From Seiridium cupressi (taxonomy: Eukaryota > Ascomycota > Sordariomycetes > Amphisphaeriales > Sporocadaceae), in assembly GCA_036674765.1 (NCBI GenBank), contig JARVKI010000007.1, positions 248,001 through 312,000 on the forward strand: a DNA stretch of 64,000 nt. The letters are read 5' to 3'. Of this stretch, positions 6,895-50,000 are shown one piece after another. Position numbers and translations under genes: made by a program. Each line of letters starts with the position of its first letter. Position 1 is the first letter of the stretch. The notes beneath the pieces are model-generated. The model worked only from the letters and a program-made list of their open reading frames with translations. It was not told the DNA's origin and did no database searches.

Positions 6895-8793
6895 GATCTC
6901 GAGCAGGGGAGGGCTATGCAGATTTGTCCAGTGTACAACTTCTACTAAGTTGAATTGAGTAAGTGATTGGGTTGACCTTTTGGATACCTCGATTGGAGGA
7001 TGGTGGCGTACTGCCTCCTATTAATAGTTGCCGCTACAAATCTGAACAACCAACATGAATGTTTATGTGCGACATTGCCTTCATATCGCAACAATGCCTA
7101 GACAATATATATTTGTAAAGTCTTTCCCACTGATTTTCTGGTTCATGCCTGAGTTTCTAGAGACATACGGCAAGTCCTGCCTTTGTTTCATGTAGCACGA
7201 CATGTTGCTAGCCAAGTAAGTTGATACTTGTCACGGGTTTCATGTAGACAAAGGACTAGGTTCATATTCAATAAGAACAGGCTAAAAATAGTTGTAACAC
7301 TTCGTGCTACAACTGTTCTTTATCCCTTATCCCACCATACACCACGTGACAATACTCTTTTCCATACAATCTACTCTTTTGTTATCAAGACACCACCGCT
7401 TCAGAGACATGCTAGTGATAAAGATGGCCTGCTTTCATTCTACTAAGAATTATGAAATGGATGTGGCGCTAAGCTGTTCAATTTCATCAATATCGAGTGA
7501 AAGCGCATGTCTACCAATACATGACTTATTCATAGTCAGCCTACAATTGGAAAATCAATAATTTAACGTTAGCATAAACATACACCCTCAAAAATATCAG
7601 CGGTGGCACAATCGATTTGTTCCGCGAAAGTTCTTTGGTTCCTTTTCCGTGGTGCTTTGTCCACCCCCTCGAGTCTGAATAGGGCGAATCATCGATCTGA
7701 CTAACCGGCGAGCGATAATCGCCAAGTTTATCTCCTCTGACTTATTGCATGGGCTAAAGAAAAAAACAAAGACATTAATCGTTGCCTATGTAACGGTCGA
7801 GTCCACCACCTACACACTGCAAATCATATCATGTATTGATTTGCCTCTTAAAATTAATTTCCTTTTCCTTTTCAGAGACTCCGCGCATCTATAACTGGCC
7901 CGTTTTTGTGGGTGCTTTCACGAGGCATGTTTGCCTCGTACCATAATTGAGACTGTATCGTTCTTTGGTGAATAGATTTCTAGCCGCGAAATCATCATAA
8001 TCAATAACTATGAGATGCCAGAGAGCGTGTAAGATGGTATTTTATGTCCTGTTCGGAGTCAATTGCACAATATTTTCAATTGAATAAGGCAGAAGTTGGC
8101 CGAGCCAGTACCACCAGAAGTACAAAGCTGGGCGATTTCATTAGGGAATAAGATTCCCCTTGCATTGATTCTGTAAGTTTCGTGCCCAACATGGAAACGC
8201 CACTTAACCGGCAGATGAAATGGTATACAAGTGCTCAGACGGGTGGCAAGTCAAATTCCTAGCCGGCGGGGTCGAAAAACTCCCATCACATGTCGCTACT
8301 CATGGAATTAACGCTAGGCATAGCTGTTGTTCAGTGTAACAAGATTTTCAGGAGCTTGAGGCAAGCTGCCCACCGCGAACCACTGTGCAAATTGGTTCGT
8401 CCTTCGTGCCTCCATCACGCTGTATGAGCATTGCCTGCTCTATTCTGTAGTCGTGAATCTGGTTGCTTGTGCATTAACCCATATGCTTGTACCTTTGCAT
8501 ACTATGGGTCCTCGTAAACTTGACTCCCTGCCCACAGAAACGACTTGTGATACCAATACAGGTGTCATGTGCTTTATTGACGCAGAAGAGGCATAGATCC
8601 TTCGTGAGATGTAGTTGAAGTCCAAACTCGTGCTACCTATTAGAACAATGTCCGAAAGGGTGACTAATGATAGAGCCACATAATCTCGGACAGCACTAGA
8701 CATTTTCACACTTATAAACGACCCAGAATATCAGCTTAATTTGCTTGTAACATTCCCTCAGCTAAATATCTAAATGTCATAATCCAGACTGAA
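6895..8793. other. AT-rich intergenic region
   Basis: About 1.9 kb, AT-rich, with only short frames (7228-7561 plus, 8440-8709 minus) lacking domain or splice support. I find no tRNA, inverted-repeat element or other feature. Confidence 0.45.
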
Positions 8794-9308
8794 CTAAATG
8801 GCACTCCAACCCAACCAAACCCAAGGCTTGGGATCGGTGGTTCTATATGTACGAATGGGAACCGAGGAGTCGGAGACCTCAGAGATGTTCGACGAACTAG
8901 AGTACGTAATCTGCTCGCTGTGAGCCAGAACATCATAATTATCGAGCAAGCCAGTCCAAGCCTTTGTTCAGTGTTAGTATGATGTTCTAAGCTGAGATTG
9001 CAATTAACAAGGCTGCGTACCCAAAATTGTAAGGTAGTGAGGTCTGTTCCACATGTGAATTTGGAGTCATCGATGGTGCAGGGCCCATCGAGAGATGTGA
9101 GGGTGGTGTAAACCGAGCCGGATCGAGTTCCAGTGAAGGTACCGCAGAGACTGTCCTCTGTGGTCCAGTTGCCCGCATTGGTCAGACAGCCAAGATCCGT
9201 ACCTCTGTCGGCGGTCAATGAGGAGAGCGTCCGTAGCTGACCAGTGCCATTGAAGGTGGTGGCGGAGGCAACACCGGCGAGGGCGGCGAGGGTAATGTTG
9301 CGGAGCAT
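8794..9308 (-). CDS. small secreted protein (spliced, 151 aa)
   Basis: Exon 1 is 9308-9021 (96 codons) and exon 2 is 8961-8794. The intron at 8962-9020 has a GTACGC donor, an ACTAAC branch point and an AAAG acceptor, phase 0, and the join yields LQFW followed by AWTGLLDNYDVLAHSEQ. Residues 1-17 are a signal peptide ending Ala-Ser-Ala. Four cysteines lie in exon 1 (GCL, LCG, PCT, TCG), enough for two disulfides, and the sequence is rich in Thr, Ser and Gly, as in small beta-rich secreted proteins of ascomycetes. The spliced end, PWVWLGWSAI, is aromatic. Reading through the intron would give a 190-residue protein whose tail looks unrelated, so I prefer the spliced model. Function not recognised. 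Confidence 0.65.
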
Positions 9309-12300
9309 GTTTGGTTATTGAAGGAACGTTGTAATAAGGAATGTCTGGTAGATACTCTTGTTGTACGGTGATGGTGATTTTACGAGTCCACTTTGGATAA
9401 TACAAATGATCCTCTGGACCCTCGAGGTGATCGGCGGCCACATGGAGATATTATGCTAAAGTACTTAGATACTTGTACATCGGCGGGCCAAGGGTCTGTG
9501 GACGTCACCCATCCGGCTGGTTCTGCCTCAAGCTGCTGTTGGTTCGCCCCCCTCCAAATGTTTGATTGCGTACCAGTGTCCCTGCAAATTAAGTGCGGAG
9601 CCGGATGTTGTTTAGTCGAGCGGGAACAGGGTGGCAGGTTGATGCTACGCTTCGGCCCAACGTCATCAAACTAACAGATCAGGCTGCCTTCATCACTCCA
9701 TTTTTTTTTTCTTTTTTTCTGTGCATCACTCATCTTCCGGGTCTGCTTGGTCATTGATTAGTAGTGAGTTGCTCGTAGCCGTCAGCGGCCACATCCGGGC
9801 AACGGAAACTACATTAGCACTCCTAGATCATGCTATTGTGGACCACACGCGATTCCCAGACGTTGAAACCTCACCAGTGCTCACTCTGCTATGGACCGTG
9901 AGTCGAAGCGGCCAGCCGGCTTGCCTCGTCACCGCCAAGACAGAGAAAGCCATGCTCCCGTTGAAGATTTTCCATACCATGATGATATGTTCGACCAGCA
10001 TCCGCAGATTTGAGGAGCAGATTGGTCTTCCTTCGCTAGACCTGCAGAGGCAAGGGATGCAGCTTAGACCGCTAATGCAACCACTGTTATCCTGGAATGG
10101 TTTCACTGGAAGGTTGCTGAGACCTTGCTGTCAATCACGTAGGGTCCGTGGTCATTGGTTCCGACACATCGGAAGCTCCATCGGGGCCCTTGTGACGAGA
10201 CCCTCAGTTGTTGAAGCCCCTGGTGCTTTGCTGCCGGCATGTTATCTGCTGGAATCTGCTAGAACGGAGCATTGGGCTGCGGAATGCAACCAATGCCACT
10301 GCGCCCTGGACTTGCACCCCTGTGAGTGGATAAAAGTCTCCTCGGCACATTACGTGGATAGCGACGCCAGCGCCCGAACAAGGCCCTCGATTGGCCTGTA
10401 CGGCGGGCGCGACCGTACTGGCAGAACTTCCCCACAATGCAATTGGGGCCGCGAAATACTAATCGTGGTTCTAGCCCATCCGTTTCACTAATCCTGGGTG
10501 GCGCCGCACGAAGATCATGACCCCTTTCAGCTGATATTCGAGTTTGACGGCTGATGCTGGACTACCGACTATCGATAAACACGCCCGGTTTCGCGCATGC
10601 TCGTTCCATCACGAGGCTAAGATCGTCAGCGATAGTTAGACAGATGCGGGAGAGACTGATGTAATGTCGTCCTCCGACGTTCCTTCACAGAATGATGGCT
10701 TGAGCATCACTGGAGCTTTGGGCATCTTGGATTATAGGTGCGGCCTCAGTTAGCCAGCCATATTACAGAAGTCCTCATATGTGACATTTGATTTCTCGGC
10801 GTTCGAAAGCTGCCGAGGATAGTCTCTGCTACGCGAGTTATAATGCCATGTCTGTATCCGGTGAGCCTTGCTGCATTGACGCGTCGAATCTATACCAGCC
10901 GTACCGCGTCTCCACTGCCTCGGCCTGTAGCGCCCACATCCCGTTCGATGTTCTTCAAGAAAATTCCACTTATCAACTATTCTGTCACCCGCTTATCATA
11001 GCTCGTCACACTACCACGTTACCCATAAGTTACTCTGTGGACTCAGATCCGACCTATCCGTGGACAAACGCCGTTGAAAGCATGATTCAAAGTTCTTAGT
11101 TTACTCTAGCAGGGCGTGAAACGGGAGACTATTCGTGATATCCCTGGCTTCCACACATGTGTGGAGGACACTGCGGACGGCCGACTACGCCACTGGTCCC
11201 GGAATATGTACCAAGATATTTGCGGATTATGGGGGCCAACGCGACCCCCAGTAGTCGACCAAGCTTTCGGCTATCGCCTCGGGAGGGAATACATAATCAC
11301 TTCAATGTGACCATGGTTAGCCTTGCTTGGCAGGAGGGACCGGCAAACATATTTTCACTATCACTATTGACAAGCATTGCGTGGTAATGGTCTCCACGAA
11401 TCAGCCCCTAAGGGCAGGAACAAGATCAACAATGCGACGTTTTGGGTGACGGCTTTGCCGTCAGGCAGAGCAGGGCTCAATCTGCTCCTGATCCCCGGGG
11501 GCATCGAGGCTTACTTGATCTCGCCCACAGCTTCGAGAGATGATGATTGTGCCCTCCTCCCAACGAAGGAATTCGAACGAATGCTTACAGCTCCATGGTA
11601 CTGTGGCTATTTCTACGATCGGTCTCAATGAGTTCGTTATGTTGACTGAACTGTACTTTCTTTGTATGTCCGTCCGCGACTGTTGATATGAGTCGTAATA
11701 ATGATATGTAGCCCGGCGGCGTTGCCACAGCGAAAGAGTAATTACAGCATTTGGCTTGGACTTGAAAAAGTGAACTAACACAGCCCGGGACGATAGACTG
11801 CTGTTCGAGCGGTTTGCTGTTGAGATTCGTAATTAATTCGAATCACATGTGGACGCCTAGTCTACGTGTGCTTTCAATTCCATTCAGTAGCTTGCGTATT
11901 GATTGATTAATTGATTGATCGCTAATCGGTTACGGCAACATTCTGCCCCATAAAGTTGCACGTGGCATGAACAAAAACTCCACAATAAAAGTCCCTGCAG
12001 AAGTTATTGACTACATGTATTGAAGGCACTGCATCATATGCAAAGGCCTAGAGTGCGATGGATGATACACATGCGCTAATACCACGTGTTGGTTTTATTT
12101 ACTATGCAATGGACAGTCAAACAAGGAGTCAAATGGATTAGGTTGCAGAAACACCTACAGTGTTTCACATGTGCATTGCATTTTACGAACATCAGTGCAA
12201 CTCAACTGTGTATGACTGATTGATCGGCATTGTACAATCGCAAGCCTCGAATGTACTGGCAGTCTTCTTAAAGAATATTGTTCTATCCGGAAGAATGAAT

Positions 12301-12484: not shown

Positions 12485-13121
12485 TTAGGCCTTCAACCAA
12501 CCGGGAATAGCCTCACACTCGGCAACACACTCGGCCTCGGCCGTTGGATTGCCTGGGAATTGGCACCCAACGGTGGTGCACTATCTAGGTGATCAGCCAG
12601 AAAGATAGTTGAAATTCTTTAAACCAGGGGAGAACTTACGAATTCCTCGCTCAACGGCGCAGGGCTTCGCTTCAACCAGCCAGGGATGGCAATGCACTGT
12701 TGGACGCACTGGGCCTCCGCAGTCGGGTCGCCAGGAAATTGGCAGCCAACAGTGGTGCACTACACATTCAGTCAGCGTCGCGATTCCTATGAGGGGATGG
12801 TACAACCAGAGCGGGCACTCACGAACTCCTCGCTTAGAGGTTCAGGCGCACGCTTCAGCGAGCCCGGGATAGCCTCGCATTGAGCAACACACTGCGCCTG
12901 GGCAGCGGCGTCTCCTGGGAAATAGCATCCAACTGTCTCACACTTTCGACCTCGTTAGTGAACATCCTGATGTGGACGCATTGGGCGAAGCAACCACGTA
13001 CGAATTCCTTGGAAAGTGGCTCTGGGCTTCGTTTCAGATTGCCTGGAATGCTTTCACAGACTTTGACACATTGTGCCTGAGCTGCAGCATCGCCAGGAAA
13101 ACTGCAACTGACAGTGTTGCA
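12485..13121 (-). repeat. four tandem exon-plus-intron repeats
   Basis: Each unit consists of a 120-nt exon (96 nt in the last) plus a 59-63 nt intron, giving a period near 180 nt. The exons are strongly similar to one another, the introns much less so. All boundaries fall at the same codon, between PLSxEF and the first Cys, which is the signature of whole-exon duplication. Confidence 0.8.
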
Positions 13122-13249
13122 CTACATACATGTAAGTAGTGAGAACATCACAAAAAGTACTTTGATCTTACGAATTTGGCGCTCAAAGGCATAGGATTGG
13201 CGAGAGCCGTAGCTGCGAAGATGGCAGCGGAGAAGGCGAGTACCTGCAT
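12485..13249 (-). CDS. secreted four-repeat precursor with Lys-Arg sites (177 aa, one repeat per exon)
   Basis: Five exons, all phase 0: 13249-13172, 13121-13002, 12942-12823, 12759-12640 and 12580-12485, with GT-AG introns of 50, 59, 63 and 59 nt. Exon 1 (26 codons) is a signal peptide plus a half-unit ending PMPLSAKF. Exons 2, 3 and 4 are each exactly 40 codons and exon 5 is 31 codons plus stop; each encodes C-x4-C-x11-C-x3-C, for example CTTVGCQFPGDPTAEAQC, followed by AIPGWLKR or similar. Each full unit then reads SPEPLSKEF, APEPLSEEF or SPAPLSEEF up to the next splice site. Lys-Arg pairs at residues 56-57, 96-97 and 136-137 fit cleavage by the Golgi protease Kex2, which would release near-identical 40-residue four-Cys peptides. 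No member of this family is known to me; function unknown. It resembles the broad class of Kex2-processed repeat precursors (KEPs), some of which feed RiPP pathways, but no UstY-like (DUF3328) gene is nearby. Confidence 0.85.
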
Positions 13250-14138
13250 TTTGGCCTGATATGAGCGATCTGAGGAAGAAGAAGAAGCTACAAAGTTCAA
13301 CTATCGTCAAAGAGTTGCAATGATAAATTTTCGGCTTTGCTCCGTCAGTGACAACTCGCGTGTGAATGGCAGTCCTTAGACGAGGTAGCGAAGATCCGAT
13401 CACGCAAAGATACCGGGGGAGTCTAATGAACGTCCCAGAAGGCCGAGGGTTCGAAATATATACTCATGGCCTCGAGGCCCTCGTTGACTTGACGGTAGCA
13501 CCGGACAACTTCTTTTCTCGACGGGTGCTTGACTTGAATCGTGCACTGTAGGATGCGCAGTAAGCAGCAGTTTTACACAATCGCAGCGTTACAGTGTCTT
13601 ACGTCCGTTTCTGTAGCGGCAAAAGGATCACCGACAACCGATGGCGCCGACTGAGACATCGGTGCACAACGCCCCCAGATCAGACATTGTGCAGTAAGCT
13701 GATTGAGGATCGGCAGAGCGATGGCAGTGTTGGTGATGGTGTTTCGCAAGGAGCTCGGTGGTTTCCGCGGTGGTCTAGTGCTAGCGGCCTTCCTAAAGCC
13801 GGGGCCGCCGCTCGAACACAGCCAATCCTGGGTGGCCGCAATTGTCTTACTACGACAACAAACCTCATCCATTTCCGCACATCTCATCCTCATACTACTT
13901 TCTTCACTGCTCCAATAGCCCAACAAGAATAACTTCGTGTGTATCATTATTTGACTGGCCTATCGGGCAACGCAAGGGAGCCGAACCCCTGAATCTCGAG
14001 GCCCACATCATTCGAATAGGCAGCAGCGCACCCAGTTGTCCAAAGTCCCATCGCTTATTGCGCGGCTCTGGTCACTTCTAGTGACTTAAGTTTGTCAGAG
14101 TTTTCTCATGAGCCAGCTCCTCACCATTCCTCACCAAG
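13250..14138. other. intergenic region between divergent genes
   Basis: Shared upstream region of the repeat-precursor gene (minus) and the F-box gene (plus). Just before the precursor ATG the sense strand is pyrimidine-rich (CTTCTTCTTC), typical of fungal 5' leaders. Frames at 13573-13947 overlap on both strands without domains. Nothing else supported. Confidence 0.45.
13457..13462 (-). promoter_or_regulatory. TATA-like element of the repeat-precursor gene
   Basis: TATATA about 210 bases upstream of the ATG at 13249. Sequence match only. Confidence 0.25.
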
Positions 14139-15680
14139 ATGAATATACTCGATCTTCCTCCGGAGCTGCTCGGCCGCGTCATCGAGTTCTCAATGCCCCT
14201 AGACTTCGAGCATCTCATGATGACATGCCGGGCTGTGTACGCATGCGGTAGATCTAGGATTGCTCTACACAATGCACGTAAGAGAGAATGGGCCAAAATA
14301 GACATCGACATTGACGAGAATGCGTCGGCAGTACTGGAGTGTCTCCACAAGATGATGAAGGATCCCATCGTAGCTGGGTATGTCGAAGATGCAGACTTCC
14401 GGGGTAACCGTATTGGGTTTTCGCCGTCCGCTGAGGAGTCCCTCCAAACGGAAACAGCCCCCTTCCGTGTGGAAACAGCTTCCATCGAGGACATGGAAGG
14501 CTTCCTCGACCAACGGCTATATTCGCACGACACTGGCCTACCCGCGTCTCTCTGGAATGCCGGGTTCATCAAAGAGTGCCTCCAGCAGGCGGATAATGAA
14601 CTATTGCCGGTTTGGTCATTCATGTTCTTACTGTCACAGCTGAAAAATATCAAGAGCCTGACACTTCCACGTTCATGGGATAATGCTTTCGTGCCTGACT
14701 ATCGCCATGAAGAATCGGCCCAGCGGCGCTTCCTTGAGTCAATCATGCGACTAAGCAATCAGACCAGACCTCATTCGCCTTGGGCACGGCTCAAAACACT
14801 TCGACTACTTGGTTTGGTCGACTATGATACACGCATCGGGCTCTCTACGTTAGCACCATTCCTAGCTATGAAGGGGCTGCAGGAACTTTACGCGACTAGC
14901 CTCGTGGCAGTCGATGACGGTTACACCGGAATCCCTTTCACATGGCTGTACCCCGATCTAAAGTCGTCCCTCCAAAGAGTAGAATTAGTGAGCTGCTGCA
15001 TGGACGCACAGTCAGTATCGAGCCTCGTAGCTAACACTCCTCTATTACGGGTTTTCAGATACAGCCAGCAGACGAAATGGCATGGGTGCGAACACGACTG
15101 GAACCCAGCAAATTTCGTCGCTGCACTAGGCAGACATTGCGGCCATCATCTTACCGACCTTGCCATCACCATTGATGAAGTATATGGTGATATCATTAAC
15201 GGCGTTACCTCGCTGAGGGAGTTCACTTGCCTTGAGCGCGTAGAGCTAGAGTTGGCCATCTTCGCAGGTCCTTCCCTCGAGTCCGGCGAACGGAAAGGCA
15301 TGGAAGAAAACCCGCCTGCTACTGGTTACAAGTTATGGGAAACTCGGGATGTGCCAAAATTGGTCGAAATGCTGCCGGCGTCACTAAGGAGCCTCCGACT
15401 CTTTAACAACTGCATAGACAGAGACGAGTATATTGATGTCGCGCTTGCCTTGTTAAAAGACTTCTCGGCTGGTCGAGATTGGCTTCTGTCGAATCTCGAA
15501 GAAATCTCATACCGGCAAAGGCTCGTTTCCGGACCAGAGCCTGTAGAGCTCGAAGGCCTGCACACTGTCAAGAAGCATGCCGAGGCTATTGGGGCAGAAT
15601 ATCTGGCCGGCGATTACATACAGCCCGTTTGGAAAAAAGCATTTGGCAACAAGCACGGTGTCCTCGCCAGCCCAGACTAA
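14139..15680 (+). CDS. F-box domain protein
   Basis: Single-exon protein of 513 residues. The N-terminus is an F-box: residues 2-40 read ILDLPPELLGRVIEF, then a hydrophobic and Cys-containing stretch (HLMMTCRAVYACG), the fold that binds Skp1 in SCF ubiquitin ligases. The remainder is long and Leu-rich, with repeated short motifs such as LKTLRLLGLVDY, LQRVELVSCCM and LRSLRLFNNCI. This pattern suits an irregular leucine-rich-repeat-like substrate-binding region, as in many fungal F-box proteins. The substrate cannot be inferred. The start is the first ATG, with CAAG just before it, and the F-box follows at once, so the N-terminus looks complete. Confidence 0.8.
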   Translation: MNILDLPPELLGRVIEFSMPLDFEHLMMTCRAVYACGRSRIALHNARKREWAKIDIDIDENASAVLECLHKMMKDPIVAGYVEDADFRGNRIGFSPSAEESLQTETAPFRVETASIEDMEGFLDQRLYSHDTGLPASLWNAGFIKECLQQADNELLPVWSFMFLLSQLKNIKSLTLPRSWDNAFVPDYRHEESAQRRFLESIMRLSNQTRPHSPWARLKTLRLLGLVDYDTRIGLSTLAPFLAMKGLQELYATSLVAVDDGYTGIPFTWLYPDLKSSLQRVELVSCCMDAQSVSSLVANTPLLRVFRYSQQTKWHGCEHDWNPANFVAALGRHCGHHLTDLAITIDEVYGDIINGVTSLREFTCLERVELELAIFAGPSLESGERKGMEENPPATGYKLWETRDVPKLVEMLPASLRSLRLFNNCIDRDEYIDVALALLKDFSAGRDWLLSNLEEISYRQRLVSGPEPVELEGLHTVKKHAEAIGAEYLAGDYIQPVWKKAFGNKHGVLASPD

Positions 15681-16141: not shown

Positions 16142-16895
16142 ATGCCATCACTGGCAGCAGCCGTACTCGTACTGGGATATGTGTCCTGTAAGTACGAGAA
16201 GCCTTCTGGATTACAATTGTCTTCCCACTTTCTAAACACCAAAGGTCTGGAGTCTCGCTCTGGGTGGGTTAACCACTGGGTTTGAAATCGACTAGATTCC
16301 AGCCAGCAAGAATATTCTGTTCGTTTATGGCAAGAGCAAGAAGCTGACAGATCCCTTGTCAGCAGCTGTATTTGCTCAGACTCCGGGGTTTGACCCCATG
16401 AGCCAGCCCACCAACTGGCAGGATGTGCCGGCGGGAGAAATCTTCCAGATTACCTGGGACCCTACAAATTACAAAGGGACAGTGACACTCGAGCTTTTAG
16501 GCGGTGGAAGCCCGGCGACACTCCAAATACTGGGGAACATTGCACAGGGTGTTGATAATCAAAAGGGCCAGTATAATTGGCCTGTGCCTATAAGATCCGA
16601 TCAACTGGACACGTACGGCATTCGAATACTTCTCGAAGCGAACCCTTCGATCTTTCAATACTCATTCCCATTCCATATCCGTCCGTATACATCCCAGACG
16701 ACAAATCAAGCAACCATAAGTTCGGCGTCCCAAGTTGTATCTCAGACCACACCCACAACGACATCGCTGTCTGTCACCCAATCCGCAATACAGTCTAGCA
16801 CCCAGCCAGTGGCTCAGACAACAACGAAGCTTCCCGACAGGTGCAAAGTTCGCAGAAGATGGGCTCCGCCTGAGTTCGGGTATCCTACGTCCTAA
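16142..16895 (+). CDS. Kre9/Knh1-like secreted cell-wall protein (spliced, about 192 aa)
   Basis: Residues after the signal peptide match the fungal Kre9/Knh1 N-terminal Ig-like domain: the run around Trp-Gln-Asp-Val-Pro-Ala-Gly-Glu, then FQITWDPTNYKGTVTLELL, ANIA-like NIAQGVDN and YNWPVP, all conserved positions of that family of Ser/Thr-rich wall proteins. Behind it is a Ser/Thr/Gln-rich linker (about residues 120-175) suited to O-mannosylation. The likely start is 16142, giving a hydrophobic leader (PSLAAAVLVLGYVS), with exon 1 at 16142-16187, an intron at 16188-16362 (GTAAGT donor) and exon 2 at 16363-16895. The 175-nt intron is longer than its neighbours, so one more small exon is possible. 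No GPI-attachment tail is seen; the protein ends with a basic segment. Confidence 0.65.
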
Positions 16896-24983: not shown

Positions 24984-25717
24984 CTTGGGCTATGAAAATT
25001 TGAATCAAACGAAATGGCGTTGTGATATATATCCAAATGGTTGGCATTCGGAGTGAGGCGCTTCAGTGAGTACCGCAGAGCACAAGCAATCGATGGTAAG
25101 GGCGGTGCCTCCAAGGGTGAAGGATCGACCTTACTACGCCTCGATCTTCTTTGGGATTCTCTTAAACAGTCGAGGCAAATAACTTAATGTACAAAGTGCA
25201 GTCCTTTGGGGCTAGTATAGCCAATGAGGCTGGAACTATTTGGGAGTTTGCAATGGGCGGTACTCATGTACGGTAGAAGATATTGATGTCTATTTATGGC
25301 CAATTCACAGACACTTTCTCCCTCGCATCTCGGGCTTGATCCTAAATACTATAAAACCATGCCCTCGATCTTTTCTACCACGTCAAACCTTAAGCACCAC
25401 TAGGAATAGCTTGTTTCTTTCGTCTGATGAGGTAGGCAAAGGGTTCATTGTGCATGAGTGTAAACTCGATAGCCTCCATACATGGCCTAAGCGCATACAT
25501 GTATACATTTACTCGTTGGAATGTATGGGCTAAGCGAAAGCTTGAGCTCGAGCTCCACCAAAAAGTCCCGAAGCTCCCCAGTCCGGCAGCGCCAGCTTGG
25601 GTAAGTTGATCCCGACAAACGTCACCAATCTGGTGTATCCTCTGGTTAGCGACCCTCCCAGTCAGATCTCTCCTGCGCGGCGACATCTCTAAGCCTCCGA
25701 GCACCATCGCCTCCAAG
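24984..25717. other. intergenic region
   Basis: Between the bZIP gene and the stomatin-like gene, both on the plus strand. Short frames only; nothing else seen. Confidence 0.5.
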
Positions 25718-27109
25718 ATGTCGCTGCTACACCGAGCCGAGAAGTCGCTTCTCGCGCCCGCCTTACGACGCGGCGTCGCGACACCCACCACCTCACAGAC
25801 GCCTCGCCTCGCCGCAACGCAAACCCTCCGGACATTCCAGACCTCGTCGCGCGCCCTGCTGCCCGCCGGGCCTGGTGGTTCCTCGATTGGTGGCCTCGGT
25901 GCCGCGCCGCCCTCCTACTTCCAGCGGCCCTCGCTGCCGGCGAACACCATCGTACGATTCGTACCACAGCAGACGGCATGGATCGTGGAACGCATGGGCA
26001 AGTTCAATCGGATCCTGCCGCCCGGTCTCACCGTCCTGATGCCCTTTATCGATCGCATCGCCTACGTGAAGAGCTTGAAAGAGCAGGCATTCGAGATCCC
26101 CAGTCAGAGCGCCATCACGGCGGACAATGTCACGTTAGAGCTGGACGGTGTGCTGTACACAAGGGTGTTCGATGCTTACAAGGCTAGGTGAGTTCTGCGC
26201 TGTATTTATGCCTCTGTTTCCGAGGTGTCTATACCGGCAGTGGGCTACTCGAATGGCTTTCCTATTTGGATGCCCGTCTATTCATGTTTGGGTTTTCTTG
26301 CGAATCCTCTGGCTCCGGTACAATATGCTAATATACCATTCTCGTCCAGCTACGGCGTAGAAGATGCCGAATATGCCATTTCACAGTTGGCCCAAACGAC
26401 AATGCGCTCGGAAATCGGCCAGCTGTCCCTCGACCACGTCCTGAAGGAGCGCGCAGCGCTCAACACCAACATCACAGCCGCTATCAACGAGGCCGCCCAA
26501 GCATGGGGTGTAACATGCCTCCGATACGAGATACGGGACATTCACGCGCCTGCCGCCGTGGTCGAGGCCATGCACCGGCAAGTCACAGCCGAGCGCAGCA
26601 AGCGCGCAGAGATTCTCGAGTCGGAAGGTCAGAGACAGAGCGCCATCAACATTGCCGAGGGAAAAAAGCAGAGCGTCATTCTGGCGTCCGAGGCCCTGAA
26701 GGCGGAGCAGATCAACCGCGCGAGTGGTGAGGCTGAAGCCATTCTCATGAAGGCCAAGGCCTCCGCTGCGGGTATCGATGCCATTGCCAACTCCATCCAG
26801 ACGGGCGGCGGCGCCGCGCAGGGTGCGGTCAGTCTGTCCGTTGCTGAGAAGTACGTCGACGCATTTGGGAAGCTGGCTCGGGAGAGCACAGCTGTCGTGG
26901 TGCCAGGCAATGTGGGCGACTTGGGCGGCATGATTGCTACGGGGTTGAGCGTGTATGGCAAGGTAGGGGAAGCACAGTCGAGGACCATGGCTGAGAGGTT
27001 GGTAAAGGGTTCCGATGAAGGAGACGTCACGAAGAGCGAGAGGGAGCAGGAGGGCGGGATCGTGAATGAGGTGGTCAGAGAATTCGACAATACCACGAGA
27101 AAGAAGTAA
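25718..27109 (+). CDS. mitochondrial stomatin-like protein (SPFH family, 409 aa)
   Basis: SPFH/prohibitin-superfamily protein, orthologous in type to stomatin-like protein 2 of the mitochondrial inner membrane, which organises lipid and protein domains. Exons 25718-26187 and 26350-27109; the intron at 26188-26349 has a GTGAGT donor, and the join gives AYKASYGVEDAEYAISQL, a family signature. Residues 1-60 are Arg/Ala/Ser/Thr-rich without acidic residues in the leader core, a mitochondrial presequence. The SPFH domain follows (FVPQQTAWIVERMGKF, PPGLTVLMPFIDRI, DNVTLELDGVLYTRV). Next are the conserved MRSEIGQLSLDHVLKERAAL and an Ala/Glu/Lys-rich coiled coil (AERSKRAEILESEG, GEAEAILMKAKA), then a C-terminal region with SLSVAEKYVDAFGKLA. 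Its gene converges with mon2. Confidence 0.93.
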
Positions 27110-27653: not shown

Positions 27654-30600
27654 TTACACTCCAAACTCACCCCCGACAACCTCCATAGCCTTCTCCAGTC
27701 TTATGCCCATTTCCTCATCCCCGCTTCGTCCTGCAACGCCTAAGGCACTTACAATGAGCGGATATAGCCTCATCAGATGCTTCCTATTCTCGCTCTCCAC
27801 ATTTGCACAGTCCGGGATTGCCTCACTCTCGCTTCTTAACTCGACCAATCTCTCTAGGATGTGGCCCAGTTCGCGACGTTGACTTAGGGGCTGCGGCATC
27901 TTCCCACGAAGCGGCTGGTCCGCGATGTATGTACGAAGTGTCAAAGCAGACCTGAGGATGAGGTACGGCGCTGCGGTCCGAGCAAGTCGAGTGTAAAGGG
28001 CATCAGGAGACTCGGTGGGCCCGTCTGACGATCCGGGAGTTCCTGGTGGTGGCGCAAAGCGAGGGGTCGGTGGCTGGATTGTGATGCTCGGGGCCGCCGC
28101 CTCGTCGTGCAAGGACACGAGTGCAAAGATCTCATCGAGGCAGACATACGCCATTTTCTGGCGGAGGCTTGGTAGTGGATCGATAGTGCGGCCGGTGCGA
28201 GCTTTGTAAAGATTTTTGAGGCCGTGGCTTTCGGTGCTCCCGTGAATCAGAGACAAATCAGCCGGGGCTGGGCTGTGGATAATAGATGTCTGGAAAAGCG
28301 ACTCTGCGTAAACTTTACGTGTCTTGTCTGGGACAGCCTCGGACCCTAGATATGGTATTATGAGCTCACGGAGCTTGTTGAATGAATTTATATCAAACAC
28401 TTGGTCATCGACGAGATTGATGCGCTCAGGTGGCGCATCGCAGTCTGCATTAGTTATGCCATTGGCAATAACCACGATTGTTTGCCAGACATCTTGAAGA
28501 GCCGAGCGCGAAATGTCCAGCACTCGGAGATGGTGGAGTGTGGCTTCCAGAATTGCGATCGCTGAGAATGTGGCTTGTTTCCAAGGTTGAGTACCTTTGG
28601 TGATGGTGGAAAATTGATACTTCAAACAGATGGGTCTCGACAAGGCTGTCAGCGCTGCCAGGAAAGCGCCGTCACTATATATGTCCAAATCTGATGCGTG
28701 TGTCACAATCAGATTTTGCAATATGACCATGCTCGCTTTTGACATGGCAACGTAGGTCCGCTTGTCTGATGGGTCCCTGTTCTGGACCTTATCATCAGTA
28801 AAAGCAAGACTGATGAAATCAGAAGTCTGAGCAACTAGGGCAGAGGGTGCTCCGGGGATATCTGCTCTCAACATTTTTAACACATCTAGAATTTGCCCTT
28901 GCAAGGCCGTGACGTAATCGATGTCAAGCACGTATGCGCCAGGAGTGGCCTGCTGCATAGCGTCTCGGAGAAGTGTCAGTATGCGTCGTATACGGTCAAC
29001 AGTGAGATCTGTTTGGATGAGACGATATACGTCGCGAAGTGCTGCCACGTAAGCTAACAAACAATTTTGGTTGTCGCCGGGTTTGTTGTCGTCCTGCTTG
29101 GCAACTGGGATACCACGGGACCACAAGTCCCAAGCCAGATCGATAGTTGTTTTGTTAAAGTTTTGCTTCGACCCGTTTTGGCTTTGAGACAGAATCTGTG
29201 TCAATGCCTTGAAGGTTGCAGTATTAATGTCGAGTACATGGAGATCGAGGAGGGATGCGAAGTGGCCAAGCAATTGTTGCCAATACGTGTTGAAGGTCGG
29301 GTAGGCTGTGAGGACGTCCAAGTAATTGGCAAGTAACCCTGAAATACCATTCAAGACGACAACGGCGGTGTCTTGCCATTCATGTCGAATTTTACTGTTG
29401 GCTTCGGGTCCGTTGACAGCAAGCAGGTGCTCCTGGACAGACGACAGGAGCTTGAAAATGACCGACTTGATGCATACAGACCAGGCCTCTGGGCTTAAAC
29501 GATCCCCATAGGCATCAAAAATGCGCAAGAGCGTGTGGGTGGCACCTATGATGATCAGTACATTCCAAACTTATTTCCAAACGAGGGGTAGTCTACTATT
29601 CCGCAATTCCAGTCGGTCATCGGTGGTGACATTGGTTAATCTTAACAGAAGAAGCATCCACAAGGCGGCATCCGATGATGGGTCTTCTGGATCAGCAGCC
29701 ATCTTCGCAAGATCATCGTCGTGGGCGTCGCCAAGGGAACCATTCGTAATCGGTAGAGACTTGTTCTTTCCAGACAGAAAGTCTGAGAGCACCCAGAAAA
29801 ATGTCACGGTCTAACAATCAGCCAATTTCCCGTTTAGAAGAGTGATAGTGAAACTCACGGTAAGTGCAATATTGAGGTCGTCGTCTTGAGAACAAAACTT
29901 ATACAAAGTATCAACCAGGATGAGGAAGCAGCTGTTGGGCAATGATGAAAGAAAGTCCGAGCTAATGAGCTGCAGAGAGTTGAAGGAGGACCTAATGAGC
30001 TTGCTTGAACGTGTCAAAATCACGGTCGAACGAGTTGAAAAATCTTGCGTGGCGTCGTGGACGAGTTCCTTCTGGATGAAGATGCTTCCGATGATCTCAA
30101 AGGCGACATCCCAACCACTAACCAGAGTCTCCCCACAATTGTCAAGCAGGCTCTTAAGCCCTTCGAGGATAATCTTGTGGATGTCTACGTCGGTCGCGTA
30201 GTGAGCAACAGATGACGGCCGATCCGCTCTCTGAAGAGGCAATAAAGAATCTCGATACGCTTCCAGCAATCGAAGTTGCACTTTGCCTCGGATCTCGTCC
30301 CCGAGGTTTGCAGCTGCAGTAGCAGCCTCCAAGACTACGCGGACTATGATATCTGCTGCACGGGTGCGCACTTGAGATGAAACGGTGGCAGAGCTCAGAG
30401 TCTTGACTAGTTCAGCCGTCAGCCGCGTCCATCCAGATATATCTGGTGGGTACGAGAGCAATCTCTCAATGTTGATAGATGCGATATCTCCAATCTTTGC
30501 CAAAGCGAACTGATCTTCCTGGTTGGGACCTCCCGTAGCAGTTGTCGATATGCTCATCAGACGGCGATGCTGGCCACTCGATGTCCGCAGGCCGTGGGTT

Positions 30601-33173
30601 GGGGGTGTCAACGTCTGAGAGGGTGGTGACTGTGGTCGACTTTCTTGCTCGGAAGTTGCATCGGACTGCCGTTCCAGGAGAGCACAGATAGCTTCAACTA
30701 CTTCCGCAAAAGCTTCATTTGGAAAGTCGACTGTGCTTTCAAAGAGCCGAGATGCAGCGATCTCAACTGCTCGGATCTCCACAGCGAAGTTTGCAAGAAG
30801 TGCTGCGGCTTCGCTATCTGCTCTCTGATCTGCACTCTTACCAGCAACTGGTGTCCTCCCTGCCGCCTTACCTGTGGAAAACAGGACAAAGTCTGCCTGT
30901 TGTAGCGTCTCAAGAACAATCCTCCAGGAAGCAGTAAGTGTAGGGCCCAGAGCAATGCCTAGATTCAACAAAGCTCGGAGGCAGAGGAGATTGCGCGTAT
31001 TCAAAGTCTGTGGTGTGGTATTGGCATCAATGGATGCTTGCCTCTGTCGTTCTCCAGCAGCACCGACGGGTGTTACAAGACTTTCGACGCTGAGGAGTCC
31101 GCGAGCATTACCGAGGATACTGTTTGGCGTTTCGGAAGTTGGAGTTGCTGGAACAGGCTTAGAAGAACCTGTGTTCAAGCACGCTGTGAATACGTTTGGT
31201 GGGACTGCAGCCTTGCCAAGCGTGGTAAGGAAGGCATCCCTAGGAGTGGACAATTGGAGTAATCCGGCGACATGAGCGAACTTCTGGAAAGCTCTTACTA
31301 GCCCATGGTAGTATTCCGAGTCCAGAGCTGCATATAGGAACGTCGAGCAGGTTGCAAGAATCGCTGGCCAGCACTCATCAACTATTTGGGCGCATATCTT
31401 TACATCCGAATGTAGAGGATGGTCTTTCAAAGCCAGGGGATTTACGGGTACAGGATTTCTCTTGAAAGAGGCAGTCCTCTCAAGGGAGTTCGTTGTCCCT
31501 GATCTTTCTAAGACCGTCTTTAGAGTCTCGGTCCCTTCTTCGGGAATGGTAGCTGGCGAATCTCGTCCTGTGTCTGACTGCTTTGTTCCTCTTCTTCGGC
31601 TGCGATTGTCCCCAGGGACGGTCAGTGGCAGAATGAATTTTGCAAGCCCCTCTGACAACGACGTGATGCATGATAGCGTGAGGGCGTAGACGTAGGACTC
31701 GGGGATGGATGGTGGGTCCGTTTTGTCCAATTGGTCTATACAGGGCACACGCATAGTACTCCAATGAGAACTGATTCCAGTATTGCCAACCTCATTTGCA
31801 ACTGATCCACTAATAATGCCCGTCACACCACTAGCCTCAAGCATTGCCTGATCTGTCGAGCTACCAACATTGGCGTAGGGATTGGCGACAGGTATTGTCG
31901 ACTGGTGACCCAGGCCAATGACAACAGGCTTTTCTGTGCTCACTCGGACGAAAGTAGCTGTCAAATTCTTCAGAATGTCTCTTTCACCCTCCTTCGCATC
32001 GTAGAGCATGAATATCCTCCTGAGCAGCCCAGGCTCGGCAAAGATGCCACGGAAGACTTCCATGCAAAGGGACCTCCTCCATAGCGCCGTATCTTGATCC
32101 AGCAGCTGGGTCAAAATCTCGAGCGCCTCCCCACCTTCCGAGAGGAGGATATTGAGGTGGCGTCTCAACAAGGTGTACAAGATGCGAACCAGTCTCACCG
32201 ACGTTGCAAAGTTGAGCTTTCCGGAGAGCGCACTAATCAAAAAAGGCATAACGTTGGTGCGCAGCACATGAGCTTGTTCGGGGTGTGATGAAAAAATGGA
32301 GGCATGGTTCGTCAGGACCGACTCTATCAGTTCAAGTCCGAATGTCTGTGGGAGACCGGTAAATCTGAGATATTCGGGACGCTGATTTTCTGTCATGAGA
32401 CATATGTCCCTGAAGACCCGATGGGCGTCCAGGGCCGCAGAACGCAGCTGGACCTGGCCATCCTGAGTGGGCGCGTCGCCAACATAACCCGTATCCGAAG
32501 TTGTTCTGTCCTCGGCCACCACCTTGTCGAAGACGGAAACAACCAGCTGCTGGAGTGTTGCAGCGGAGGTATTACTCACGATTCCATTCTTGCTCGTCTG
32601 GAGAATGAAACATATATTTAGTGCAGTGACTAGCAGGTCCCCTTTGATGTCAGTGGCATAATTCTGCAACAGAGTGGGCAATGCCTGCAGGATCTTGAGT
32701 TGCACGTCTAGGCCAGCGGCGGTGGCTTCTCTGAGCGCTTCGAGAACTGGGCTGAGCTTGGATCTCGGGAGAGCGCTGCTCATAATAAGCCGTACAAGGC
32801 AAACGATGGCGATTCCCGTAAATTTGGCATTCTTGGTCCCGCATGCAATGATGAAAGGGTTCACAAAGTTGACCCGCTGGGCAAGCTCTGGAGCCAGTTA
32901 GCCTATATACCTGCCACAACGCGTCAGCGCATTGAGGAAGAATTACCGGCTCCTGTCTGGGACTCATTGACACCGCGGAGGGTCTTAAGCTCTTCGAGTG
33001 ACTTTTCTGCAGCCTGACTACGTATGAGTATGATCTACTCCATAGATGCCGCCGCGGGCTGGGGATGTTGCGGCAGGGGTGGGTCGTGGAGGTACCTGTC
33101 TAAGGTCATTGTGCTTGCGCTTGCTCTCCTGGATCAGATTTGTGAGCTCCGAGGCCAAGAGCTGGGTGGTCAT
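27654..33173 (-). CDS. mon2: Mon2-family Golgi/endosome trafficking protein (1759 aa)
   Basis: Large Sec7-related scaffold (without the Sec7 catalytic domain) that works with Dop1 and the Neo1-type flippase in endosome-to-Golgi traffic. Exons 33173-33096, 33013-32947, 32887-29859, 29810-29597 and 29545-27654; introns of 82, 59, 48 and 51 nt, all GT-AG with matching phases. The N-terminus starts MTTQLLASELTNLIQESKRK and LEELKTL, the DCB region of Mon2/BIG proteins, followed by VNPFIIACGTKNAKFTGIAI and LPRSKLSPVLEAL, typical Mon2 sequence. A HUS-like stretch follows (NFATSVRLVRILYTLLRRHL, RSLCMEVFRGIF). Helical-repeat sequence continues to the C-terminal Mon2 domain (LKNLYKARTGR, AYVCLDEIF). 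Ser/Thr/Pro-rich linkers lie near residues 480 and 820. The first ATG directly precedes the conserved DCB start. Confidence 0.9.
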
Positions 33174-42041: not shown

Positions 42042-44082
42042 TTAGCAGACACCAGTGGGGATGACCTTGCTGGCGACGCGGTTCTTGGAGGCACCATATT
42101 TGGCACCCTGACCAAGACCACGCTTGGCAAAACCAGTCCAGATCTCGCAGGCGTTATCACCACCGGTGAGAGCCTCATCGGCGTCGAGAATAGCATCACG
42201 GGCGGTGACAAAGTTGGGGTTGCAGGGTTGCCTGTCAATCTTGTTAGTTGCCGTCCCTTGCAAGCGCATTAGGCTTTTTGTATCTTCTAAGCGGAGACTT
42301 ACAGAGCCATAGCATCAATGACAAGCTTCATGGTTAGGAACTTGCCATCGGTGGGGACGCCGTTGGCATCGAAGGTCGGGCGAGCACTGTCGTTCTTGCC
42401 GTGCTTGTCGATCAAGTTCCAGAGAACCTCGTAGAGCATGGTCGTCCAGGTCTCACCAATGTCGTGGACCTCGTTCTTGGTGTTGAGGGTTGTGTACGTG
42501 TTGGGGTTCGTGGTCAAGCTGGTCGAGAACAGGACGGAGCGGATACCGGCGGGGTTGTTGTAGACCCAAGCACCCATGGGGTAGTTGGTGTTGCGGGTGT
42601 CGGATGGCTTGAGACGGATGGCAGTGGCCATGAAGTCACCCCAACCCTCACCCATACCACCGGCCTCGAGAGCGTTCAGGCAGTTGGAGTTGGCGGGTCC
42701 ACCAGTCAGACGTGTCGAAAGACCGTGTGAGTACTCGTGGATGATGACACCGGCCTCGAAAGCACAGTCACGGACAGGGGTGGACTGGGTCCAAAGGTAC
42801 ATCCTCATGCGGCCCGGCTGGCCATCAGGGGGGGTGGCAAAGTTGGCGTTGTTGGTACCGGAACCGTCCTGGGAGTTGAGGATGGTGAAGTCGCTGCCGG
42901 AGCCACCCTTGCCCTGGTTGTCAACCTGGAAGTTACCGGCCTCTTCGTTGAAACCAAGGGTGTACAGGAGGTCGTGGTACTCGTTTCCAGTGAAGAAGAG
43001 CTGGGTGACCGAAGCATCACGGTAGGTGGTGGGAGGAGTCATGGTGGCGGTCCATTCGTACTCGAATGCGTCCTGGGCGCTTGTGGGGCGGTAGTTGTTC
43101 AGGTACGTGTTGCCTCCACTGGGGTTTGTCTGGGCGATGGCGTTGTTACCGCGGGTGGTGTGGTAGGTTGTCGTTCCGTCATTGAGCCACGTGAGGGGAG
43201 ACTCGGTGGTGTTCCACGGGTTGGTAAGGGTAGTACGCGAGCACTCGTCGGGGTCGTTGCAGGCCCAGGGGAAGACGGTGTAGGTGGCTTCGGCGACGTA
43301 GTCGACAACACCGTGGACGGCATCGTTGCTCTCGGCATCGACGTACGTGAGTAGCCAGTTGTCCATGATATCAGTCTCGACTCTCCAGGTGAGGGCCAGG
43401 GTACCGTCCTGCTTGACATAGTACATGAGGCGGGCCTCGGGGTCCTTTTGGGCACCGGAGGTACCCTTGAGGACGTAGGCTTCAGTCCCCTCAATGGCCT
43501 CGGCGGAAGCATCACCAGTAACCGGCAGAGAAAGGATGCTGGTGGCGCCAGTGAGAGCACTGGTTGGGTCGACGAAGTCACGCTTGCTCAGGGGGCTGTC
43601 AGCGGGGATCTCTCCGGTGAAGAAATTGTTTCCGTAGGAGAAGACGTGACCATCCTTGCCGATCTGTCCATGCATTAGCAATCGATTTATTTTCTCGCCA
43701 AAAATTCAAAGCTCACGTTGACGTTGAAGTCGGAGTTGTCGATGTCAAGGCCGTGGACGGTCTGCTTGAAGTAGACATGGCCAACACCGTTGGTGCCAAC
43801 GTAGCTGTTGGCCACGCGGAATTCAGCATCGGGGAATGTGCTCTTGACCAGCTCAGTAGCGGTCTCGACGTAGTCGGCGCGCTTCAGGACCTTGAGGGAG
43901 TCATCGGTCTTCACGGTGCTGCTAGCCTTGTAGAGGTTGGTGGTACCGGTACGATACTGGTTGAGGTCGACGGAGCGCTTGTTCAAGCTGTCCTTGTAAG
44001 CAGACCGGTGGTCGACGGCGTGAGGGTGGGCAAGCGTCAAGGACGCGCCAATGACGACGCTGGCCAACAGAGAGTAGCGCAT
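42042..44082 (-). CDS. mep: secreted M36 metalloprotease (fungalysin), 638 aa
   Basis: Extracellular elastinolytic zinc metalloprotease. Exons 44082-43717, 43663-42303 and 42231-42042; introns of 53 and 71 nt, GT-AG, with phases matching (FNVN joins [14 protein letters not shown] joins QPCNPNFV). Residues 1-18 form a signal peptide ([18 protein letters not shown]). A propeptide of the fungalysin/thermolysin type follows ([20 protein letters not shown]). The catalytic domain has the zinc motif HEYSH at residues 431-435, with Glu432 as catalytic base, and the third zinc ligand Glu461 in [10 protein letters not shown], thirty residues on as in the characterised enzymes. The C-terminal [11 protein letters not shown] and [13 protein letters not shown] are conserved. 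Length matches the family (about 634-648). All key residues are present, so it should be active after propeptide removal. Confidence 0.95.
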
Positions 44083-44193
44083 CTTGAAAGAGCCGAAGGG
44101 AATAAGGCGGTCTAAAAGAGAGACTGGGCAACGGGATGGAATTCGAACCGGAAGCTGACCTGTTCCTCTTCATGGTCCACGGCGTTGCAGGTC

Positions 44194-47033: not shown

Positions 47034-50000
47034 CTAAACTTTGTCCAGTATTCCGACGATGCGCCCAATCAGATCAGATGCTTGTATCCGCGACAAAAGG
47101 GATGAGGCACCGAAGATACCAATATCCATACTGTTGCCGCGCATGGCTGCCTCGATGTCCACTGCATCCTGTGCATTCCATTAGATTCAGACTGCTATTG
47201 GTCAATTTGTTGGATGGACAGAATTCGACTCACGATATAGACATGTTTGACACGATTGCCTGACAGCCACGGGCTATCAGGTCGTGCTAGATCATCTGCT
47301 GGTATTTGTCCTTTGCTCTCCTGGGGCAGCATTGCTGTCTTCTCCTGGAACCGTATTTCCTCATCCGCATCCTGAACAGAGGTTGTATCAGGAAGAGTTA
47401 GAAAATTGACGAATGAGGCAATCTTGACTCCTGTCCATTCTGCAATCTCCCACAAGCCAGCAGATGCATTCTCATAGGAGCCAATTTCCAAAAGATCGCT
47501 CTGTACTCTCATAGCAATCTCAACTAGCCCATCGTCCCGATGGAACAGAACTCGAAGTGGGACGATGCTCAGGGTTGGGTAAGGCGCATCGCGAAGTGCC
47601 TCGTTGAATGACGTCCTGTTGGCAAGGTAGATGCCAAACACGATATCGTACCCATCTTGGAATTGCACGATTGTGTCGTTTAGGGCAGAGAGATGTTTGG
47701 CGTATGCAGCGAAGAATAAGGCCTGTATACTGATACCACTCTCTGCTGCCTTTGTCCGGATCCTTGTCAGGTCGCTGATCACCGAGGGACGGAATAGCGA
47801 AGTGCGAGAATGGACGTCGGACGCTGCTGTCCTGCTCCGCTCCGAGGTTGCCCCTTGGAGATATCTCTCCCAGAAGCCCTTACTCTGTTCTCGTGAATTT
47901 TCCCTGTGGTGGGCCAGCACGAAGTCGTACCATGATTCCGGGCCGGCTGGGGCTGGTGGTTGTCTGCTACCACACAGCGCGCTGAACCGACTGACGATCA
48001 TTGGTAGGCTTACACCATCATAGAGAGCGTGATGAATCCGCACCCTCAACGTGGCAGTCTCTCCAGCAGCTTTGGTGATTCGCACCACGAAAAGCCGACT
48101 GCCTTGTAGTTGTAGCTCCCACTCACTAGTAGCATCTCCCGAATGTTTTGTCGATGACTGATCTGGGCTGACAACAACCTGAACAAACGGTATTTCAAAT
48201 GCGCCTGTAGCCACGAAACAGGTCCTCAGAATAGGGAGTTCAGCTAACAGAGTGTGCCATGCATCGACTATTCGATTCTGCAGGACATCGCCAAGAATCT
48301 CATAAGAGAACTCGTAGAAATATACTTCTCCTCCCGTGTTATCCCAAACGCTCAACATATGGACTTGCATGGGCAAGGCCGGGAGGATCTTCTCCACGTG
48401 GGATTGATCGAAACCGGCCTGAGCGATAAGGTTGTCGAGGTCAAAGTTCTTCAAGGGATCCCTCCTCTCGGTTGTTGGAGAAAAGATGATTTCCTTTCCG
48501 GGTTGTGTTTCCTTGTCTCTTGGAGCGATATCTCTGATCGATGCTGCACTCACCATATCCCGAACAGACACGATGACACCACGCTTTCGCAGCAAGGAAC
48601 TAGCCTTTATCGCACTGATTGAGTCGAGTCCTAAGTGGTAGATGGACTGACTGGGCAAAATAGATGATCGTTCTACCCCCGATACTTCCGCAAGAACGTC
48701 GACCATTTGAGACTCGGTCTCAGTCCACTTGGTCTCGAAATCTCCGTCTTCATCGACGGTATCGTCTCTGTGGCTGTCATTCTCACTTTCAAGTTTGAAT
48801 GGGGGCAGACCGCATATAGACACCGAGCCGCCACTCGAGCTAAAGTCTACTACTTGGCCGTATTCATTAGTCAGGAAGTATCCAAGCACCTGGTCAAGCT
48901 GACCAAGAATAGTTTGGCCTTGTTCTTTCGAGATGTACTGATCATCACATGCGACCCTCCATACCAACTGGTCATGAATGATCTCCATTTCGACACACAG
49001 TGGGTAATCAATTTCTGATGCCGATTGAATTGACTTCCAGATCGAGACGAACTCATCAGAGGAAGTCTCAGCCCGAGACTGCATTGTGAACAAGGCATTG
49101 AACAGGGGTCCACTGCTGCCGCCAGAAAGTTTCTGGGCTTTTCTGAGTGGGAAGTACTGAAATTCGCGGAGAGCGTTCAGGTTGTCCCATATGTACTGTA
49201 AATATTCCGTGATACTTCCGTGGAGTATTGTTCTCACTGGCACAGTATTCATGGTTGGGAACATCAGGTTCTGTTCTTCCTCCGTCGATCTTCCCGAAAG
49301 AACAACCCCAAATGTAACACTGAGCGACTGGACCAATGTCCCGAGGACTATTGTCCAACAAGCTTGGCCTAATGCTTGAGTCGTAATTCGTTGACGCATA
49401 CAACATGCTTTGATTTGTGAGACTGAGACCTGTGACAGAGCCTCCAGTTTATGAAACAAGCTTGCTTGGAACTGGTCCTGACGAACAGTTTTGGGAAGGA
49501 CGGTCGCGTGGATATCATAGAGGAACTCGGCCCAGAAACTCTCCGCGGCATCTGAAGAGCTGGCAAGAATGTTTGCTAAGGTAGGCTTGTAAGATTGCCT
49601 CGCATGATATGCGCCATCATATGCCGCCTGGATATCCTGATGAAGTAAGTCGAGAGACGTGCCATCATAGAGAGCATGCGCAATTGACAAGATGATGTAA
49701 CGTCGCCCAGACACTGAGACTGGCCTGAACTGAAGCAACTTGGATCGACCCTCGGACCTGGCCGCCGCCATACGAGCGTTTTCCACGATCCGACCCATGT
49801 CCTGCAGGCTATCCAGGGTTACTTCTTCCTCGAATGGGTCAAGCGCCGTAGCAACAACTTGACAGTAAGCATGGCTGAATTTGGGATCATCCAGCAGAAC
49901 AAAAGACGTTTTCAATATGGGTGAATTTTCAATGACAGCCTCTATAGCAAACTTGAGTGTATCCAGCTTGACACCACTCGAGATCTCAAGGATGTCGTGG

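Follow-up and report, generated by a model that had tools for sequence, protein, structure and literature searches.

What does a gene built of five very short exons encode: a single secreted protein with internal repeats, or a precursor that is cut into several separate peptides? This question is raised by a locus on the minus strand of the window, i.e., of the whole stretch of 64,000 nucleotides analysed here (contig C7, bases 248001-312000; the assembly comprises 228 contigs and 45.4 Mb). Secreted, Kex2-processed repeat proteins (KEPs) are defined as secreted proteins in which three or more similar units lie between dibasic sites and the repeats make up at least 15% of the protein (PMC6339444). 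According to another survey, that of Umemura 2020, 7878 KEPs occur in 1345 of 1461 strains, and 2560 of them have no homolog at all; they are very diverse and mostly have no assigned function (PMC7329392).

The gene extends from ATG to stop at positions 13249-12485 of the window, minus strand. Its five exons of 26, 40, 40, 40, and 31 codons are all in phase 0 and form a spliced coding sequence of 534 nt, that is, 177 codons and a stop, encoding a precursor of 177 residues. Its parts are the following.

Exon 1, 13172..13249, minus strand: 26 codons; predicted signal peptide and NPMPLSAKF, the N-terminal segment of peptide 1
Intron 1, 13122..13171, minus strand: 50 nt, GT..AG, phase 0
Exon 2, 13002..13121, minus strand: 40 codons; Cys core of peptide 1, Lys-Arg, and SPEPLSKEF, which starts peptide 2
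Lys-Arg codons, predicted Kex2 site 1, 13029..13034, minus strand: residues 56-57
Intron 2, 12943..13001, minus strand: 59 nt, GT..AG, phase 0
Exon 3, 12823..12942, minus strand: 40 codons; Cys core of peptide 2, Lys-Arg, and APEPLSEEF, which starts peptide 3
Lys-Arg codons, predicted Kex2 site 2, 12850..12855, minus strand: residues 96-97
Intron 3, 12760..12822, minus strand: 63 nt, GT..AG, phase 0; its retention would bring in-frame stops
Exon 4, 12640..12759, minus strand: 40 codons; Cys core of peptide 3, Lys-Arg, and SPAPLSEEF, which starts peptide 4
Lys-Arg codons, predicted Kex2 site 3, 12667..12672, minus strand: residues 136-137
Intron 4, 12581..12639, minus strand: 59 nt, GT..AG, phase 0
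Exon 5, 12485..12580, minus strand: 31 codons and TAA; Cys core of peptide 4, end LKA-stop, no Lys-Arg

A branch-like CTNAY box starts 15-16 nt before the exon in all four introns (the motif is degenerate and the count has no control). By eye, a TATA-like TATATATT lies about 210 nt upstream of the ATG, and a CT-rich stretch directly precedes it. Exons 2-5 each contain one copy of the pattern C-x4-C-x11-C-x3-C, and the 64-kb window has no further copy in any of its six frames; 40 first-order Markov simulations gave a mean of 0.025 and a maximum of one per window. Chance open frames were rejected on the basis of this expectation and of the three relatives described below. A first pattern search returned 12 matches (26 in its control), one of which was the precursor gene.

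As the original prediction had suggested, we searched for relatives with a profile of the Cys unit. The profile was built from the four peptide units of this gene only and was compared with 5.77 billion proteins. Three relatives were found among seven word-sharing candidates (E 3.4e-17, 1.5e-10, and 8.3e-8), and no well-studied family appeared. The relatives, denoted P0001, P0002, and P0003, are 57-85 residues long. Each is a single open frame that covers one or two exons and runs past the exon ends.

These overrunning ends are informative about splicing. The residue before the first cysteine is Q in all three relatives, as is compatible with a CAG acceptor, and the residue after the unit or after exon 1 is V at each of the four ends present, as is compatible with a GT donor. 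In P0001 (L-T) and P0002 (L-I) the residues also allow a CTNAC/CTNAT box starting 15 nt before the acceptor. Read in this way from protein letters, not from DNA, the frames imply that the relatives use the same splice sites as the window gene and thus give independent support to the structure with one repeat per exon. Together with the GT-AG introns, they bear out the initial description of five phase-0 exons, three of them exactly 40 codons long.

P0001 is the most instructive of the three. It carries a signal-peptide exon homologous to exon 1 (16 of 26 residues are identical), followed by 17 residues, V first and Q last, and then by the unit. The 17 residues appear to be the in-frame translation of a 51-nt intron that corresponds to intron 1 (50 nt) of the window gene. 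The P0001 unit is closest to exon 2 (34/40 residues identical, against 33/40 for exon 3, 28/40 for exon 4, and 20/31 for exon 5), an order that suits a unit directly following exon 1 without proving it. The first Cys pair is spaced C-x5-C in both P0002 and P0003, and the middle spacing is C-x10-C in P0003; hence the first half of the unit is its variable part. For P0002 as for P0003, the longest listed contig measures 33,619 bases, and the two may therefore be repeats of a single gene.

A second profile pass that included the three relatives recovered the same three among 804 candidates. The whole precursor, compared with 5.8 billion proteins, gave 25 candidates, none of them at E 10. No relative was present among nine pattern stretches from viral contigs or among 185 from contigs of prokaryote genomes. 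Two protein searches of the gene's own genome gave only the four exons among the best candidates scored, i.e., no paralogs.

The peptide register follows from the two kinds of predicted cuts. The N-terminus of exon 1 is hydrophobic over residues 1-17, with Ala at positions -3 and -1 (judged by eye), and we infer a signal peptide of these 17 residues cut between ATALA and NP. This cut and cuts after the three Lys-Arg pairs would give four pieces of exactly 40 residues, which together cover 160 of the 177 residues. Every unit is laid out as X-P-X-P-L-S-x-[EK]-F, C-x4-C-x11-C-x3-C, IPG-x-L, and Lys-Arg, with the exception that peptide 4 ends in LKA. The segment NPMPLSAKF behind the predicted signal cut is the counterpart of SPEPLSKEF, APEPLSEEF, and SPAPLSEEF behind the Lys-Arg pairs. 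The introns interrupt the peptides between this N-terminal segment and the first cysteine, and so each of exons 2-4 comprises one core, the predicted Kex2 site behind it, and the first residues of the peptide that follows.

This register changes several details of the original prediction. It had placed the Cys motif, a Lys-Arg pair, and a PLSxEF tail in each exon. The Cys motif is indeed present in exons 2-5, but exon 5 has neither Lys-Arg nor PLS, and exon 1 reads PLSAKF rather than PLSxEF. Moreover, the PLSxEF segment is not the tail of the preceding unit: it forms the N-terminus of the following peptide. Of the proposed three or four peptides, four are predicted, all of the full length of 40 residues and none short. 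They had been called near-identical but are only similar to each other, with 58-81% protein identity.

By architecture, with cleavage predicted and the signal peptide judged by eye, the gene is a KEP gene: four 40-residue units lie between dibasic sites and account for the coverage given above. It shares with known KEPs a predicted signal peptide, at least three similar Lys-Arg-bounded units, and repeats filling most of the protein. It differs from them in the four conserved cysteines of its unit, the conserved non-pheromone cores written out in the Results of Le Marquer 2019 being free of cysteine (PMC6339444). The main text of that paper uses the string "cystein" for pheromone or pheromone-like peptides and in its list of abbreviations, and nowhere else. 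The arrangement of one repeat per exon is another difference; the words "exon" and "intron" are absent from the main text of both KEP surveys (PMC6339444; PMC7329392). This is probably a new type of KEP with an unusual gene structure.

A rival reading is that the protein is secreted uncut, namely as a four-module cysteine-rich surface or apoplastic protein in which the Lys-Arg pairs serve as linkers. Units of 40 residues are long for KEPs of Dikarya, whose commonest class has 9-24 residues (PMC6339444), and repeat domains encoded one per exon without processing signals do exist, as in nasonin-6 of Nasonia (PMC2853521). Such insect exon-duplicated, defensin-like genes also have a Cys-rich unit in each exon and are also explained by exon duplication; they differ in having phase-1 introns and no processing signals between the units, and as far as known they are unrelated (PMC2853521). 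However, Lys-Arg recurs at an equivalent position in each of the three internal junctions of the gene studied here and in each relative. X-Pro-X-Pro opens an X-Pro-X-Pro-Leu-Ser-type start in all eight visible segments, four in the window and four in the relatives, and a structural linker would not need it. Finally, the predicted removal of the signal peptide would give the first unit an N-terminus like the one that cuts at Lys-Arg would give the others. With these points taken together, we regard an uncut protein as quite improbable. The originally proposed secreted Kex2-type precursor with one repeat per exon is supported computationally, three relatives sharing both the unit and Lys-Arg.

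We thus consider it highly probable, judging from the sequence, that the gene encodes a KEP with trimming of the alpha-pheromone kind and that four peptides are released from it. The precursor would enter the ER by means of its 17-residue signal peptide, and a Golgi Kex2 homolog would cut after the three Lys-Arg pairs to give the four 40-residue pieces. A Kex1-type carboxypeptidase would take off the basic pair; peptide 4 has no dibasic C-terminus. A Ste13-type dipeptidyl peptidase would then take off two X-Pro dipeptides, which would leave peptides of 34, 34, 34, and 36 residues. Their computed net charges are 0, -3, -4, and -5, and by net charge and pI they are neutral to acidic. Two disulfides would probably hold each of them, and cysteines 3 and 4 would lie on a short helix. 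With two disulfides, the computed monoisotopic masses are 3453.58, 3501.54, 3636.60, and 3795.66 for the trimmed peptides and 3892.77, 3911.72, 4030.79, and 4147.83 for forms that retain X-Pro-X-Pro. Candidates for two of the enzymes are encoded in the same genome. The one P-domain protease (locus L013) matches a kexin of the PDB over residues 123-556 (E 1.2e-159). A DPP IV-like protein (locus L014), encoded by an open frame of 862 codons, matches DPP IV with E 9.9e-104 and has, by eye, a hydrophobic stretch near its N-terminus; there is also a second, weaker locus of the DPP IV type.

The Ste13 signature, i.e., XA, XP, or the repeats XAXA, XPXP, or XAXP, precedes alpha-factor repeats (PMC10569646; PMC6339444). 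In Ascomycota it is as a rule reserved for alpha pheromones, but Basidiomycota and Rhizophagus also have it in other KEPs (PMC6339444). When a mushroom KEP was expressed in Pichia, the Ste13 motif was removed, and some mushroom peptides likely result from Ste13-type processing (PMC9769878). The gene might then be a strongly diverged precursor of the species' own alpha-type sex pheromone. Like alpha-pheromone precursors of Ascomycota, it has a predicted signal peptide, tandem units, and Kex2 sites followed by X-Pro-X-Pro, and this signature is the one whose dedication to pheromones is reported (PMC6339444). Pattern searches of the genome also gave no other KEP-like pheromone gene: searches for canonical alpha-pheromone and Kex2/Ste13-repeat patterns returned 2, 2, 16, and 7 matches, and none of the 27, all of which were read, is a KEP-like precursor. 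The reversed-pattern controls gave 4, 4, 6, and 4 matches (18 in total); the four patterns are degenerate and weak, as they comprise few codon forms and ignore introns. The patterns may have been too narrow, or else the pheromone of this species belongs to an unlisted type. One short frame on the minus strand near base 1501 of locus L038 has two Lys-Arg pairs followed by SASP and SP; it has no repeated unit and is probably due to chance.

The gene displays the signature of the alpha pheromones, but its length and core disagree with theirs. The mature unit of 34-36 residues compares with 9-14 (PMC10569646) or 9-24 residues (PMC6339444), it has four cysteines, not two, and neither GQ nor PYG occurs anywhere in the precursor. 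Thus, where alpha-pheromone precursors have peptides of 9-14 residues with GQ or PYGxPxG cores, this gene has a longer four-Cys peptide and an exon for each unit. A diverged alpha pheromone is in our view very improbable, and the reading as a non-pheromone KEP is retained.

A signal peptide and Kex2-flanked repeats are also the design of ustiloxin precursors, so the gene could be suspected of encoding the precursor of a cyclic RiPP of the ustiloxin type (a dikaritin). UstYa/DUF3328 genes occur near 22% of KEP genes and, where present, are on average 3.09 genes away (PMC7329392). The genome has at least 42 matches to UstYa (PF11807). Several of them are grouped on the same contigs (e.g., C14, C56, and C67), and the genome seems rich in ustiloxin-type RiPP loci. 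A 5.8S rRNA search of the assembly gave no match; UstYa, Kre9/KNH, fungalysin, and the genome size suggest that the source is a filamentous ascomycete. The window has 72 frames with 130 residues or more, and 30 of these, picked by hand, were compared with Pfam, with the following results.

RNase T2-like C-terminal domain, 8739-9314, left of the gene: Pfam match
F-box-like frame, 14112-15677, right of the gene: Pfam match below threshold
Kre9/KNH protein, 16296-16892, right of the gene: Pfam match
Band 7 protein, 25610-27106, plus strand: Pfam match
Mon2-like (Sec7-related HUS/DCB) trafficking protein, 27657-32897, minus strand: Pfam match; an ordinary housekeeping neighbour
Fungalysin-type M36 metallopeptidase with propeptide, in two adjacent frames, 42302-44169, minus strand: Pfam match; near the synthetase
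Multi-module nonribosomal peptide synthetase, 47198-62140, minus strand: adenylation, carrier, and condensation domains, with extra C-terminal carrier-condensation pairs

The synthetase lies 34 kb from the precursor gene, and no link between them is evident; its layout presumably recalls that of ferrichrome-type siderophore synthetases. None of the 30 frames has a RiPP-type modifying domain, and none of the at least 42 PF11807 matches is listed on contig C7. Furthermore, the four conserved cysteines suggest disulfides and not side-chain cyclisation. The precursor resembles ustiloxin-type precursors in its putatively secreted, Kex2-cut repeats and departs from them in having no UstYa match listed on its contig and no core of the EDYXI type. 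We give this origin hardly any probability.

The original prediction could not name a family, and neither could we. No Pfam model reached its cut-off for the precursor (there were two sub-threshold rows), the relatives had no Pfam match at E 1, NCBIfam gave nothing at E 1, and a sequence search of the PDB gave nothing at E 10. A full-text search with five fragments of the unit found no paper, although supplementary tables on KEPs may list the unit. The peptide family looks undescribed. An AlphaFold2 model of the exon-4 unit, based on seven sequences, is weak (mean pLDDT 66.1, pTM 0.37). Its only helix of at least four residues spans residues 12-24 of the unit and bears cysteines 3 and 4; the same helix was obtained in a single-sequence run (pLDDT 64.5). 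A Foldseek search with this weak model gave no PDB match at E 10. In such a fold, two disulfides could plausibly tie the short helix to the N-terminal C-x4-C segment.

Another rival concerns the role of the peptides and not their release: they could be secreted helical-hairpin antimicrobials similar to plant alpha-hairpinins, cut from modular precursors. The sub-threshold match to PF14861 points in this direction. It covers the C-x3-C half (E 1.2e-4; window 12485-13121) and scores 22.2 bits, below the cut-off of 27. Plant alpha-hairpinins are likewise short four-Cys peptides with a helical C-x3-C and come from multi-module secreted precursors (PMC11591084). Their signature, however, is C-x3-C-x4-20-C-x3-C (PMC11591084), and the first Cys pair is separated by four residues here and by five in P0002 and P0003, not by three. 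Only a single helix is present in the weak model, the relatives lack a Pfam match even at E 1, and the organisms belong to different kingdoms. Membrane-active peptides are cationic, whereas the charges predicted here are neutral to acidic. The match to PF14861 is probably a convergence of helix and Cys spacing, and a hairpinin-like antimicrobial role seems unlikely for the peptides of this KEP.

How did the repeats arise? Exons 2-4 are symmetric (phase 0-0), and repeats could be gained, lost, or skipped without loss of the frame. The exon pairs have DNA identity of 57-71%, this value and the protein identity being computed over 31 or 40 codons. In most pairs the differences fall mainly at third codon positions; for four of the six pairs, one-sided binomial tests of this excess gave P from 9e-6 to 0.04. 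Estimates of dN are 0.16-0.37; a single pair yields a computable dS, 1.92, and the other five are saturated. The third-position bias and the dN and dS values indicate that the duplications are old and that the protein is under constraint. No similarity between introns beyond that of shuffled sequences was found in any of the six pairs, though a recent exon duplication would have left it. The proposed growth by whole-exon duplication agrees with the symmetric, homologous exons and is their simplest reading, but the introns have lost any resemblance to each other, and the duplication is therefore an inference.

As to the role of the peptides, extracellular signal or effector peptides have in our estimate an even chance against all other roles combined, a clearly lower confidence than that in the cleaved multi-peptide precursor. 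An extracellular, non-sexual signal or interaction peptide is the most likely function, ahead of an antimicrobial that breaks membranes and of a cyclised RiPP. A bolder idea is that the Kex2/Ste13/Kex1 line has been reused in a filamentous ascomycete to make a non-sexual, disulfide-bonded peptide hormone or effector from frame-neutral exon cassettes; we put it forward tentatively, as rather doubtful. If it is true, the gain or skipping of exons would set the number and the mixture of the released peptides with the frame kept, i.e., the gene would be a spliceable multi-peptide precursor.

The apparent novelty lies in the joint occurrence of a unit with four cysteines, a long peptide that carries a Ste13 signature, and repeats that each have their own exon. 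KEP surveys begin with annotated proteins (PMC6339444; PMC7329392). Gene callers may overlook a gene whose five exons measure 78-120 nt, or may join the exons wrongly. If exon-per-repeat precursors recur, annotation-based surveys would undercount disulfide-rich fungal peptides. The unit profile combined with the splice rule (boundaries between Q and C and between F and V) offers a direct way to find such genes. That a long unit with four cysteines carries the Ste13 signature is also relevant to a possible non-sexual use of pheromone-type processing in Ascomycota.
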